Shown piece after piece: positions 9,761-40,306 of a stretch of DNA of 64,000 nucleotides. The notes under the pieces were generated by a model. The model saw only the letters and a list, made by a program, of their open reading frames with translations. It was not told the DNA's origin and made no database searches. Made by a program: the position numbers and the translations under genes. The DNA is taken from positions 62,001 to 126,000 of the forward strand of contig NZ_JACYXK010000028.1 in assembly GCF_014842975.1 (NCBI RefSeq), read 5' to 3'. Within the stretch, counting starts at the first letter, position 1. Each line of letters begins with the position of its first letter. This DNA comes from Rhodanobacter sp. DHB23. Its GTDB lineage: Bacteria; Pseudomonadota; Gammaproteobacteria; Xanthomonadales; Rhodanobacteraceae.

Positions 9761-10112
9761 GGGGGTGTACTGGCTTCGACGGGGGTAGTGAGATGGCTTG
9801 GTGCATGCCGAGGGGGCAGCTTTCCTCGTTAATCCAGCCGCAAACTCATAGTTGCCAACGACGACAACTACGCTCTGGCCGCTTAAGGCCTAGCCCCGAA
9901 CCCACTTGTGCTCGTGCTCGTCGGTGTAGGGTCATTATCACGGGATCGCCCGAAGCCGCCGCCTGTCGGCCAGGGTCAAATCAAGCAGGCTGGTCCTTCG
10001 ATGCGCTTCGCACGCCGTGCTGTCGCGGGACGAGATCCAACGGTGAGCTAAGCATGTAGTACTGGGCGTCAAGCGCCTTCGGACGGGGGTTCGACTCCCC
10101 CCACCTCCACCA
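9761..10112 (+). ncRNA. ssrA: Transfer-messenger RNA (tmRNA)
   Basis: The 352-nucleotide RNA rescues stalled ribosomes and tags the nascent protein for degradation. The 5' end GGGGGTG pairs with CACCTCC at 10102-10108 to make a seven-base-pair acceptor stem with one G-U pair, followed by A and an encoded CCA (10110-10112). The T-arm motif GGTTCGACTCC is present. The tag reading frame (9854-9886) encodes ANDDNYALAA and a TAA stop; with the alanine carried by tmRNA the tag is AANDDNYALAA. The 3' end is a classical integration site, but no duplicated end or integrase was seen. Confidence 0.97.
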
Positions 10113-35241: not shown

Positions 35242-35616
35242 ATGCTTGAACAGCTCGATGGATTGCCGCCCGGCACGCTGGGCTTCCGCGCACATGGCCG
35301 TGTGACCGCCGCCGATTACGAGCAGGTGCTGGTGCCGGACGTGGAGGCGGTGTTCGCGCTCAACCGCAAGCTGCGCATGCTGTTCGTGGTGGCGCCGGAC
35401 TTCACCGGTTTCGATGCCGGCGCGATGTGGGAAGACGTCATGCTCGGCTTCCGCCACATCAGCGGCTGGGACCGCGTGGCGCTGGTGACCGACGTGCCGT
35501 GGCTGCGCACGGCGACCAAGGCGACGCGCTTCCTGGTGCCGGCCGATTTCCGCCTGTTCGCGCTGGCCGAACTGGAGCAGGCGGCGGGCTGGATCGCCGA
35601 GCCCGCGGACGGATAA
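35242..35616 (+). CDS. SpoIIAA-like (STAS-fold) protein
   Basis: A 124-residue soluble protein resembling the SpoIIAA-like family of small proteins with a STAS-type fold. Recognisable segments are GFRAHGRVTAADYEQVLVPDVE, given here as start and middle of the first half, and the WEDVMLGFRHISGWDRVALVTD region with its conserved Trp pair; the C-terminus has FRLFALAELEQAAGWI. Members are found in many Proteobacteria without known function. A Shine-Dalgarno (GGGAGA) lies shortly before the ATG. It follows recJ by about 60 bases in the same direction. Confidence 0.75.
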   Translation: MLEQLDGLPPGTLGFRAHGRVTAADYEQVLVPDVEAVFALNRKLRMLFVVAPDFTGFDAGAMWEDVMLGFRHISGWDRVALVTDVPWLRTATKATRFLVPADFRLFALAELEQAAGWIAEPADG

Positions 35617-35668
35617 GCAGGATGGACAGGCAAATGGACGGCCGAATGCCTTCATGCCGAATCGTCAC

Positions 35669-35697
35669 TTGCGCAGGCGCCCGCATTCTGCTCTAGT
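35669..35697 (+). promoter_or_regulatory. Weak candidate promoter for the asnB leader
   Basis: TTGCGC (35669-35674) and TCTAGT (35692-35697) are spaced by 17 bases, with three and four matches to consensus. Transcription would begin near the leader ATG at 35704, which has no Shine-Dalgarno, so leaderless translation is possible. Low certainty. Confidence 0.3.
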
Positions 35698-35703
35698 CGG
35701 CAC

Positions 35704-35823
35704 ATGATCTTCACGACCGCCAACTTCCCGAACGCCACCGCGCCTGCCGCGCGGAGCTTCGTGGCGGCCGCCAACAATAATCGCGCGAACAATAACGCCA
35801 ACCGTTGGCGGGCCCGCGCGTAG
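35704..35823 (+). CDS. Asparagine-rich leader peptide of asnB (putative attenuator peptide)
   Basis: A 39-codon open frame runs from an ATG to a TAG. Nine of its residues are Asn, and seven fall within ten codons (residues 24-33, NNNRANNNAN), using both AAC and AAT although the genome is GC-rich. It ends 28 bases before an intrinsic terminator, and the next gene encodes asparagine synthetase. This is the organisation of amino-acid biosynthetic leader peptides such as those of his, thr or leu operons, in which ribosome stalling at scarce charged tRNA controls termination. No Shine-Dalgarno is evident. Translation is inferred. Confidence 0.7.
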   Translation: MIFTTANFPNATAPAARSFVAAANNNRANNNANRWRARA

Positions 35824-35877
35824 CTGAAAGCAACACAACAGACACGCGATCAAGGCCCGCCCAGTGCGGGCCTTTTT
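35767..35877 (+). promoter_or_regulatory. Putative transcription attenuator of asnB
   Basis: Four complementary segments can be traced. Segment 1, CGCCAAC (35769-35775), pairs with segment 2, GTTGGCG (35804-35810). Segment 2 extended, GGCGGGCC (35807-35814), pairs perfectly with segment 3, GGCCCGCC (35854-35861). Segment 3 with segment 4 forms the terminator. A ribosome stalled at Asn codons 24-26 would mask segment 1 and allow 2:3, the antiterminator. A ribosome reaching the stop at 35821 would mask segment 2 and allow 3:4. The pairing is seen; the mechanism is inferred by analogy. Confidence 0.65.
35852..35877 (+). terminator. Intrinsic terminator upstream of asnB
   Basis: A perfect 9-bp stem (35852-35860 and 35866-35874, loop CCAGT) runs into five T (35873-35877). 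No gene stop lies immediately upstream except that of the Asn-rich leader frame, which fits an attenuator. Confidence 0.88.
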
Positions 35878-35914
35878 CGTTTTGGGCGCATGGCCGAAAG
35901 GATCGTGCGGTTTT

Positions 35915-35972
35915 TTGAAAAGTGCAGACATGGCTGTCTGCTTCTTGATCTTCGTGATCAGGACGATCACAC
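35915..35972 (+). repeat. Two-hairpin palindromic repeat, locus F, between attenuator and asnB
   Basis: A diverged unit with both hairpins kept by paired changes: GCAGACA/TGTCTGC around TGGC (35924-35941) and GTGATC/GATCAC around AGGAC (35954-35970). It ends about 20 bases before the asnB ATG and would lie in the untranslated leader of asnB. Confidence 0.87.
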
Positions 35973-35990
35973 AAACCAAAGGCCACCACC

Positions 35991-37655
35991 ATGTGTTCGA
36001 TTTTCGGAATGTTCGACCTGCAGCCGGGCGACGACCTCGCCGCCCTGCGCCGGCAGGCGCTGGAACTGTCGCAGCGCCAGCGCCATCGCGGCCCGGACTG
36101 GAGCGGGGTGTTCGTGGATGCGGGGGTGATCCTGGTGCACGAGCGCCTCGCCATCGTCGACCCGGCCTCGGGCGCGCAGCCGCTGCGCTCGCGCGACGGC
36201 GCGCTGGCGCTGGCGGTGAACGGGGAGATCTACAACCACCGCGAACTGCGCGCGGCCAGCAGCTACGACTTCACCACGGGTTCGGATTGCGAGGTCATCA
36301 ACGCGCTGTACCGCGAGCATGGTGCCGATTTCCTGACCAGGCTCAACGGCATCTTCGCCTTCGCATTGTGGGATGGCGCCGCGCAGCGCTACCTGATCGC
36401 GCGCGACCCCATCGGCGTGTGCCCGCTGTACTGGGGGCATGATGAACAAGGCCGCCTGTGCGTGGCCTCGGAGATGAAGGCGCTGGCCGGCGTCTGTGCG
36501 GACGTGGCCACGTTCCCGCCTGGCCACGTGTACGACAGCGCCACCGGCGAACTGCGCAGTTACTACCACAAGCGCTGGCGCGACTACGCCGCCACGCGCG
36601 GACATGCGGTGGCGCCGGACAGGTTGCGCGCGGCTTTCGAGCAGGCCGTGCACCGCCAGCTGATGACCGACGTGCCTTACGGCGTATTGCTTTCCGGCGG
36701 GCTGGATTCCTCGCTGGTGGCCGCCTGTGCGGCGAAGTTCGCGCGCGAGCGCATCGAGGACAACGACCGGAGCGAGGCCTGGTGGCCGCGCCTGCATTCC
36801 TTCGCGATCGGCCTGGACGGCTCGCCCGACCTCGCCGCCGCGCAGGTCGCCGCCGATGCGCTGGGCACCGTGCACCACGGCTTCGTCTACACCTTCTGGG
36901 AAGGCCTGGACGCCGTGCCCGAGGTGATCCGCCACCTGGAAACCTACGACGTCACCACCATCCGCGCCGCCACGCCGATGTACCTGCTGGCCCGCCGGAT
37001 CAAGGCGATGGGCGTGAAGATGGTGTTGTCGGGCGAGGGCTCGGACGAGCTCTTCGGCGGCTACCTGTACTTCCACAAGGCGCCCTCGGCGGAGGCCTTC
37101 CACGAGGAAACCGTGCGCAAGCTCGACGCGCTGCACAGCTACGACTGCCTGCGCGCGAACAAGGCGATGATGGCCTGGGGCGTGGAGGCGCGCGTGCCCT
37201 TCCTCGACCTGGAATTCATCGACGTGGCGATGGGCATGGATGCCGCGTACAAGATGGCCGGCAACGGCAAGATCGAGAAGCATGTGTTGCGCGCGGCCTT
37301 CGACGGCGCCTTGCCGAAGGAAATCCTGTGGCGGCAGAAGGAGCAGTTCAGCGATGGCGTGGGCTACGGCTGGATCGACGGCCTGAAGGCGCACGCCGAG
37401 CAGATGGTGAGCGACCGCGAATTCGCCGCAGCCGCCGCGCGCTTCCCGTTCAACACGCCGGCCACCAAGGAGGCGTATTTCTACCGCCGCATCTTCGAGC
37501 AGCACTACCCGGGCGAAGCCAGCGCGGCCACCGTGCCGGGTGGCAAGTCCATCGCCTGTTCCTCGCCCGCGGCGCTGGCGTGGGATCCGACGTTTGCGGC
37601 GCTGGCCGATCCCTCCGGTCGCGCCGTGCGCGGGGTGCACGAGCAGGCGCTGTAA
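35991..37655 (+). CDS. asnB: Asparagine synthetase (glutamine-hydrolysing)
   Basis: A 554-residue AsnB, the same length as the Escherichia coli enzyme. Cys2 is the glutaminase nucleophile (MCSIFGMFD), NGEIYNHREL lines the glutamine site, and the synthetase domain has the PP-loop SGGLDSSLVA and SGEGSDELFGGY. It makes asparagine from aspartate, glutamine and ATP through a beta-aspartyl-AMP intermediate. The start ATG is fixed by the required Cys2. The gene follows an Asn-rich leader, a terminator and a palindromic repeat, which together suggest regulation by asparaginyl-tRNA supply. Confidence 0.96.
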   Translation: MCSIFGMFDLQPGDDLAALRRQALELSQRQRHRGPDWSGVFVDAGVILVHERLAIVDPASGAQPLRSRDGALALAVNGEIYNHRELRAASSYDFTTGSDCEVINALYREHGADFLTRLNGIFAFALWDGAAQRYLIARDPIGVCPLYWGHDEQGRLCVASEMKALAGVCADVATFPPGHVYDSATGELRSYYHKRWRDYAATRGHAVAPDRLRAAFEQAVHRQLMTDVPYGVLLSGGLDSSLVAACAAKFARERIEDNDRSEAWWPRLHSFAIGLDGSPDLAAAQVAADALGTVHHGFVYTFWEGLDAVPEVIRHLETYDVTTIRAATPMYLLARRIKAMGVKMVLSGEGSDELFGGYLYFHKAPSAEAFHEETVRKLDALHSYDCLRANKAMMAWGVEARVPFLDLEFIDVAMGMDAAYKMAGNGKIEKHVLRAAFDGALPKEILWRQKEQFSDGVGYGWIDGLKAHAEQMVSDREFAAAAARFPFNTPATKEAYFYRRIFEQHYPGEASAATVPGGKSIACSSPAALAWDPTFAALADPSGRAVRGVHEQAL

Positions 37656-39056: not shown

Positions 39057-39180
39057 GAAGGATTCCCCGGACCGGCGGCAGTCCAGACGCCAACGCGGCA
39101 AATCCGGCTCGGTGGACAAGGCCATGCCTTGGGGCCGCTCTGTTAAGATGGACGGCCTTTCTCCACCGTTTCCACCATCC

Positions 39181-40306
39181 ATGATCGAGACCAATCCGAT
39201 CCTTGCGCAGATCGCGGACCTCACGGCCCGCGTCGAGTCGCTTAGGGGGTATCTTTGACTACGCCACCAAGCGTGAGCGCCTCGAAGAAGTAAGCCGCGA
39301 ACTGGAAAGTCCCACCGTGTGGGACGATCCGCCGCGCGCGCAGGAGCTGGGCCGCGAACGTGCGCGCCTCGACACTGTGGTCACCGGCATCGACGAGCTC
39401 ACTTCGGGCCTGTCCGACGCAAAAGAGCTCGTGGAAATGGCCGCCGCCGACGGCGACGAGGAAACCGTCGCCTCGGTCGTCGACGACGTGGCCAAGCTCG
39501 AAGCCCGTGTCGGCAAGCTGGAATTCCAGCGCATGTTCTCCGGCAAGATGGATTCGGCGAACGCCTTCGTCGACATCCAGGCCGGCGCCGGCGGCACCGA
39601 GGCGCAGGACTGGGCCGAAATGCTGCTGCGCATGTACCTGCGCTGGGCCGAATCGCGTGGCTGGAAGACCGAGCTGCTGGAAGCCTCCGGCGGCGAAGTG
39701 GCGGGCATCAAGTCGGCCACCTTCCGCGTGGAGGGCGACTACGCCTACGGCTGGCTGAAGACCGAGATCGGCGTGCACCGCCTGGTGCGCAAGTCGCCGT
39801 TCGATTCCGACAATCGCCGCCACACCAGCTTCACCAGCGTGTTCGTCTCGCCCGAAGTCGACGACGACATCGACATCGAGATCAACCCGGCCGACCTCAA
39901 GACCGACGTGTACCGTTCGTCCGGCGCCGGCGGCCAGCACGTCAACAAGACCGAGTCCGCGGTGCGCATCACCCACGTGCCCTCGGGCGTGGTGGTGGCC
40001 TGCCAGACCGAGCGCAGCCAGCACGCCAACCGCGACCGCGCGATGAAGATGCTGGCCGCCAAGCTGTACGAGCTGGAAGTGCAGAAGCGCAACGCCGAGA
40101 AGGACGCGCTGGAAGCGACCAAGTCCGACATCGGCTGGGGCAGCCAGATCCGCAACTACGTGCTCGACCAGAGCCGCATCAAGGACCTGCGCACCGGCGT
40201 GGAGCGTTCCGACACGCAGAAGGTGCTGGACGGCGACCTCGACGAGTTCATCGAGGCCAGCCTGAAGTCCGGCCTGGACGCGGGCGCCAAGCGCATCGAC
40301 GCCTGA
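39181..40306 (+). CDS. prfB: Peptide chain release factor 2, expressed by +1 programmed frameshift
   Basis: RF2 releases polypeptides at UGA and UAA codons. Frame zero runs from the ATG at 39181 for 25 codons to an in-frame TGA at 39256-39258. Skipping one base at CTT-T resumes at GAC (39257), giving a protein of about 374 residues. The stop-recognition tripeptide SPF (RKSPFDSD) and the catalytic GGQ ([10 protein letters not shown]) are present. The frameshift site makes synthesis self-limiting: ample RF2 terminates at the internal UGA. It precedes a small repeat protein and lysS, recalling the prfB-lysS pair of enterobacteria. Confidence 0.97.
39244..39259 (+). promoter_or_regulatory. prfB programmed +1 frameshift site
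   Basis: The element reads AGGGGG (39244-39249), a three-base spacer TAT, then CTTTGAC (39253-39259). The internal Shine-Dalgarno-like tract, the slippery CTT and the TGA-C context match the classic RF2 autoregulatory signal exactly. Confidence 0.97.

Follow-up and report, generated by a model that had tools for sequence, protein, structure and literature searches.

The his, thr, leu, ilv, trp and phe operons are the classical examples of ribosome-mediated attenuation. They have in common a short leader with control codons for the amino acid that is produced, a stop codon close to region 2, 2:3 and 3:4 hairpins that exclude each other, and an intrinsic terminator in front of the biosynthetic gene. 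Part of this list is supported by sections of PMC1183508, and leaders for Ala, Met and Cys have also been published. The transcript of the S. meliloti trpLE(G) attenuator starts at the leader ATG according to part of PMC7298713, and the LeuL leaders of Streptomyces lividans are leaderless according to part of PMC8079986. The asnB leader described here resembles both in that its transcript is predicted to begin at the leader ATG, whereas the two published leaders carry Trp or Leu codons and belong to other bacterial groups.

Asparagine and tRNA charging also serve as the signal where T-boxes control Asn-related genes in Firmicutes. T-boxes bind uncharged tRNA directly and do not require translation. 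T-box control of asnS is described for a few Firmicutes species in a portion of PMC2494555. No T-box was found by Rfam at the gathering threshold, nor at E values up to 1 for positions 35600-36050 of the window, i.e., the whole 64-kb stretch of DNA that was analysed. No Rfam family reached its threshold over the leader, which holds for the amino-acid operon leaders (Trp, Leu and Thr) as well; a full-length alignment to Trp_leader scored 28.2 bits against a cut-off of 41, and Leu_leader likewise fell short of its threshold (19.4, cut-off 50). Among 20 relatives, sub-threshold matches to leader families were obtained on the leader strand in four (L120, L138, L187 and L193), and L180 gave such a match on the opposite strand.

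The region upstream of asnB in the window has most of the elements by which classical attenuators are recognised. The leader is short and has many codons for the amino acid produced, and the reading of these as codons is deduced from selection. An intrinsic terminator lies between the leader stop and asnB, and an antiterminator that excludes this terminator is conserved in the window's own family (f1) and covaries in two sister families of its order (f2 and f3). The gene that follows produces the amino acid that would be sensed, and by gene content the charging of tRNA should depend on asparagine. In contrast to the classical systems, asparagine would be sensed, asnB would be controlled, and the leader is without a Shine-Dalgarno sequence. 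We propose, with a probability of about 0.88, that this leader is a transcription attenuator of the ribosome-mediated type with specificity for asparagine, and that expression of asnB probably requires ribosomes to stall from asparagine shortage. The transcription start, the stalling, the read-through and the response to asparagine are what we infer from comparison of sequences.

asnB and its asparagine-rich leader

The asnB gene (35991-37655, + strand) encodes a glutamine-hydrolysing asparagine synthase B (NCBIfam NF006949, 864 bits, cut-off 499) and has its ATG at 35991 by direct reading. Its nearest named matches come from Rhodanobacter (Rhodanobacteraceae; order Lysobacterales in NCBI), and the frame upstream of the leader, which is on the same strand as asnB, stops near 35616. 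A single AsnB match was obtained at 1e-100 in the window's genome, with seven others being weaker. AsnRS scored above its cut-off in this genome and in 114 of 121 genomes of the order overall. GatB was not found in the window's genome by a search that was positive in 12 of 14 control genomes, and neither was AsnA. Since a genome without GatB has no tRNA-dependent route to Asn-tRNA, the presence of AsnRS together with the absence of GatB and AsnA implies that Asn-tRNA should come from free asparagine, and its charging should accordingly follow free asparagine in this genome. Elsewhere in the window, a tmRNA gene is located at 9761-10112 (Rfam RF00023) and prfB at 39170-40306 (gene assigned by NCBIfam), the latter with a sequence near 39245-39260 (AGGGGG...CTTTGAC) that resembles what we take to be the usual RF2 programmed +1 frameshift site.

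The leader, MIFTTANFPNATAPAARSFVAAANNNRANNNANRWRARA, is a frame of 39 codons (35704-35823, + strand) that extends from an ATG at 35704 to a TAG at 35821-35823 and probably starts at the transcription start itself. Seven of the ten codons at 35773-35802 (+ strand), namely codons 24-26, 29-31 and 33, specify Asn and are regarded as control codons from direct reading and from the selection pattern in relatives. A preliminary description of this DNA had already reported the 39 codons, the seven Asn codons in ten, the TAG at 35821 and the start of asnB at 35991, and direct reading confirmed all of these coordinates. The leader is the sole site in the six frames of the 64-kb window with at least six Asn in ten codons, and no site with even five or more was present in 499,912 control bases, which comprise the asnB genes and neighbours of loci L031-L110 minus the 700 nt before asnB. 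The leader frame at each locus was taken as the most Asn-rich one, a choice that favours Asn finds; it is unlikely to be their cause, given that the control DNA is without clusters and that 29 of 30 distant asnB genes are without a leader.

Asn occurs on average 6.5 times among the last 20 codons (range 3-9) in 121 leaders of the window's family and three to six times in 19 leaders of the sister families, with just three Asn in six of the measured leaders. These Asn codons are AAT in 370 of 840 cases, as against 79 of 452 in asnB genes. Leaders of the g11 genomes are shortened to 22-23 codons, the N-terminal half being missing.

Whole genomes and named contigs yielded 213 asnB loci with 176 distinct upstream regions. 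The close asnB genes (identity of at least about 76%), all from f1, f2 and f3, account for 146 of these regions, of which three (L057, L081 and L099) were excluded for insufficient upstream DNA. A leader containing Asn codons and followed by a hairpin is present in 143/143 usable regions; the script found 142 of these leaders and missed that of L137, which was read by eye. A survey of relatives for an Asn frame and for the alternative pairing upstream of asnB had been put forward as a check in the preliminary description, and both turned up, the leader in every usable region and the antiterminator core as a conserved element.

The more distant asnB genes (60-71% identity) comprise 30 distinct regions, nine from f1, one from f2 and 20 from other families, and 29 of these regions are without an Asn leader. 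The remaining one, L202 (family f8, asnB at 67% identity), has, in the stretch from about 150 to 50 nt ahead of asnB, a 22-codon frame with four Asn, the stop of which is followed after 24 nt by a strong terminator. The promoter of this frame lies, by eye, about 28 nt upstream of the ATG, and this leader would therefore not be leaderless. We regard it as a candidate Asn leader, through which a fourth family may have a diverged or independently arisen version of the switch. When the sample was extended class-wide, two of 104 genomes matched asnB at 1e-100, both of them from the window's order, and the 300 nt before asnB in one E. coli strain show nothing similar by eye.

Probable leaderless start and selection on codons

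The leader promoter is composed of a -35 element, TTGCGC (35669-35674, + strand), and a -10 element, TCTAGT (35692-35697, + strand), separated by a 17-nt spacer, with the -10 element 6 nt before the leader ATG. A generic promoter scan of the window found none at the leader, and the promoter is visible only through the comparison of relatives. This comparison was based on 141 leaders, 121 from f1 and 20 from f2/f3, with L087 left out for want of a candidate start and L184 kept. TTG[CTA] occupies the -35 place in 137 of them, compared with 101/2251 of the control windows. For the -10 element, which was sought 3-12 nt ahead of the ATG, the best match ends 6-7 nt upstream of the ATG in 134/141, the best spacer among those of 15-19 is 17 in 106/141, and the base at -1 of the ATG is C in 134/141. 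Only a single candidate start is available in 21 of the 141 leaders, and the other starts were chosen with the same upstream profile, so that the agreement is partly by construction; a choice among few starts could hardly raise a 4.5% motif to 137/141.

An SD-like 4-mer (AGGA, GGAG, GAGG or AAGG, 4-16 nt ahead of the start) precedes the leader ATG in 1/121 and asnB in 116/121 of the f1 loci, and the corresponding numbers for f2/f3 are 4/20 and 20/20. The preliminary description had suggested a leaderless leader, and this suggestion is strengthened by the spacing of the promoter in relatives and by the absence of a Shine-Dalgarno sequence. Given a conserved promoter with its end 6-7 nt from the ATG and the lack of such a sequence, the leader is probably translated leaderless, the transcript starting at or beside the ATG.

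Two models, R1 and R2, were each searched over 150 genomes of the order with strict filters, and among the matches listed both have their best scores at asnB. No second Asn leader was seen among 13 weaker matches that were viewed, seven of which are, by eye, a tRNA or gene ends with terminators, the other six being ilv leaders (L240-L245, family f2). These ilv leaders, found by R2, are like the asnB leader in having leader codons, a stop and a terminator, and unlike it in their branched-chain codons of the VLVLVLIT type and their ilv genes (named by reading the proteins). They start, by eye, right behind a TTGACA-like promoter. As the ilv leaders are promoter-adjacent too, attenuators of this order may commonly have leaderless leaders.

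Codon-level selection along the leader was assessed with 42 matched pairs from f1, every leader being used once (84 of 121 leaders), and with a count over all pairs. Within the Asn codons, 30 of 45 single changes in matched pairs are synonymous, where 11% would be expected (P about 1e-18), and P is 5e-6 even if all changes are assumed to be transitions, for which the expectation is one third; the all-pairs count gives 223/451 against an expected 21%. These figures indicate that the Asn codons are selected as Asn, most changes being replacements by the alternative Asn codon. A different behaviour is shown by the last six codons, with 4/31 synonymous changes in matched pairs against 27.6% expected and the fewest changes at third positions (9 vs 26 and 22); in the all-pairs count they are near expectation (54/206, 26% vs 28%), with third positions lowest again. 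That third positions change least here points to a constraint on the RNA more than on the peptide. The N-terminal part shows a small synonymous excess in matched pairs (94/257, 36.6% vs 27.6% expected, P 0.001) and none in the all-pairs count (611/2128, 28.7% vs 28.1%). Such a succession of zones, in which Asn would be read as codons and the following stretch would act as RNA, is the pattern that an attenuator predicts.

Terminator, antiterminator and predicted switching

The intrinsic terminator (35852-35883, + strand) is recognised from direct reading and covariation. Its 3:4 hairpin at 35852-35874 has 9 bp, seven of them GC, and a loop of 5, and is followed by the T-rich tail TTTCGTTTT to 35883, so that the terminator which had been claimed downstream of the leader stop can be read directly. 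The hairpin, sought within about 60 nt of the stop, is located 18-34 nt behind it in 142/142 measured leaders, and it satisfies the strict T-tail rule in 122/142; the distance from terminator to asnB ranges from 28 to 384 nt among relatives. In alignment A1, consisting of 88 non-redundant sequences out of 122 from f1, the terminator shows 95.4% pairing. Doubly changed cells number 97 vs 29.9 in shuffled alignments (0/500), and the covariation score is 0.234 vs 0.091 (0/500); doubly changed pairs (5 vs 4.1) and pair types, two of the five measures, are within the shuffles. In alignment A2, which holds 18 of 20 sequences from f2/f3, it is 93.5% paired, with 34 doubly changed cells vs 10.9 shuffled (0/500) and nine doubly changed pairs vs 4.5 (0/500).

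Region 2, the 5' strand of the antiterminator (GGCGGGCC, 35807-35814, + strand), lies within the last codons of the leader and is the exact complement over 8 bp of region 3 (GGCCCGCC, 35854-35861, + strand), which is common to antiterminator and terminator. This alternative pairing, likewise noted in the preliminary description, holds on re-reading, and its core is 95.4% paired over the 88 f1 sequences. The 13-pair 2:3 helix in A1 is 89.2% paired vs 89.1% when shuffled, with no covariation beyond shuffles in the window's family, and 54 of 55 varied paired cells of the 8-bp core are changed on one side, mostly to wobble pairs. Region 3 has two pairing partners, and these may allow it little variation. 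For the sister families, a 10-pair antiterminator in A2 is 79.0% paired vs 74.5% shuffled (0/500), with eight doubly changed cells vs 2.6 (0/500) and four doubly changed pairs vs 1.5 (2/500), pair types being within the shuffled range. L190 provides a compensated change, with GCAGGCC as region 2 and GGCCTGC as region 3, at which the terminator keeps only a wobble. Of 2,420 trials with shuffled leader ends, 21% reached the real 2:3 pairing (mean 0.59 vs 0.77), and composition alone accounts for much of this pairing.

An upstream segment, CGCCAAC at 35769-35775, had been proposed to sequester region 2. It can pair with 35804-35810, but it is unconserved by eye in A1 and was rejected as region 1. 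For the sequestering stem, the more probable candidate is a local 1:2 hairpin, CGCCAA-CCG-TTGGCG, located at the end of the Asn codons (35796-35810, + strand, MFE -7.8). A counterpart with an MFE of -4 or lower is present in 87 of 88 f1 sequences and goes beyond shuffles in 32/88, its sequence and register differing among them (CGCCAA/TTGGCG, TACCCG/CGGGTG, CCGC/GCGG). The hairpin is weak in f2/f3, where it goes beyond shuffles in 1/18, and in the folding model of untranslated RNA it leaves 2:3 unblocked.

In this model the part of the leader hidden by the ribosome extends to 12 nt beyond the first nucleotide of the A-site codon, and the sample comprised 121 leaders from f1 and 19 from f2/f3, with L087 out as well as L184, the start of which is doubtful. 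For the window RNA, P(3:4) is 0.91 with no ribosome and 0.96 with the ribosome at the stop, compared with P(3:4) of 0.00 and P(2:3) of 0.76 with the ribosome on the middle Asn codon. When 2:3 is scored as formed at P above 0.5 before arm 4 is transcribed, it forms in 121/121 f1 leaders stalled at the first or middle Asn, in just 50/121 stalled at the last Asn, and in 0/121 with the ribosome at the stop; the f2/f3 leaders give 19/19 at each Asn position and 0/19 at the stop. Once arm 4 is present, the equilibrium favours the full terminator in 107/121 f1 leaders despite a stall at the middle Asn, and the switch must therefore be kinetic, its outcome being settled while transcription is under way. 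In the absence of translation, 2:3 is still formed ahead of arm 4 in 96/121 f1 leaders.

According to the mechanism that we propose, RNA polymerase would begin at or beside the leader ATG, and a ribosome would load onto the leaderless 5' end and trail the polymerase. With ample Asn-tRNA, the ribosome would get to the stop at 35821 and cover region 2, upon which region 3 would pair with region 4 and transcription would stop near 35883. With scarce Asn-tRNA, it would stall at the Asn codons, and region 2, left free, would pair with region 3 ahead of the synthesis of region 4. This would exclude the terminator and allow asnB to be transcribed.

Alternative readings and biological meaning

Terminators between genes on the same strand are common and similar hairpins stand behind other genes of these genomes, which would suit a terminator that merely ends transcription of the frame with its stop near 35616, the Asn-rich frame having arisen by chance. 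Such a terminator would hardly be expected 18-34 nt behind the leader stop at all 142 loci, and a chance frame accords poorly with an Asn cluster that is unique within the 64 kb and has no counterpart in 0.5 Mb of control DNA, with a conserved promoter of the leader's own, and with the selection of its Asn codons as Asn; we hold this to be the least probable of the alternatives. A role mainly in trans, either of the leader peptide or of the roughly 180-nt attenuated RNA, has a precedent in S. meliloti rnTrpL/peTrpL (part of PMC7298713). The small N-terminal synonymous excess in matched pairs (94/257, P 0.001) would agree with it, but the excess is absent from the all-pairs count (611/2128), the g11 leaders with their 22-23 codons do without the N-terminal half, and the last codons are unconserved as amino acids, which makes this reading very unlikely, if less so than a chance frame.

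The Asn codons might also affect chiefly the translation or the stability of the asnB RNA instead of termination, given that leader and asnB would be on one transcript and that the SD-like sequence of asnB itself could be masked. This ranks highest among the alternatives and is nevertheless improbable, as the terminator covaries and in 122/142 satisfies the strict rule for a T-rich tail, and as a distance between terminator and asnB that varies from 28 to 384 nt fits control by termination better than masking of a ribosome site.

For the asparagine-specific attenuator that we favour, the mechanism is already known, and the specificity for asparagine is probably new to description. A bacterial asparagine attenuator was not found in the literature searched; the comparative surveys Vitreschak 2004 and Lopatovskaya 2010, which are the likeliest to hold such a case, were outside the scope of this search, and novelty is therefore unproven. 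We nonetheless consider there to be a good chance that this is the first asparagine-specific ribosome-mediated attenuator, occurring in three families of the order and possibly in a fourth (L202), with a leaderless leader mRNA that would tie Asn-tRNA charging to the sole recognised asparagine synthetase of a genome without GatB.

Codon choice is predicted to affect the sensitivity of attenuators, as stated in part of PMC1183508, and the preference for AAT in the leader makes this predicted effect testable here. The leaderless start would offer a test case for leaderless initiation that keeps up with RNA polymerase. Because the switch is found at close asnB genes and is missing from 29 of 30 distant ones, its origin should be traceable. 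If the proposed reading is true, asparagine would join the amino acids sensed by leader-peptide attenuation, and asnB would have a regulatory logic in several bacterial families.
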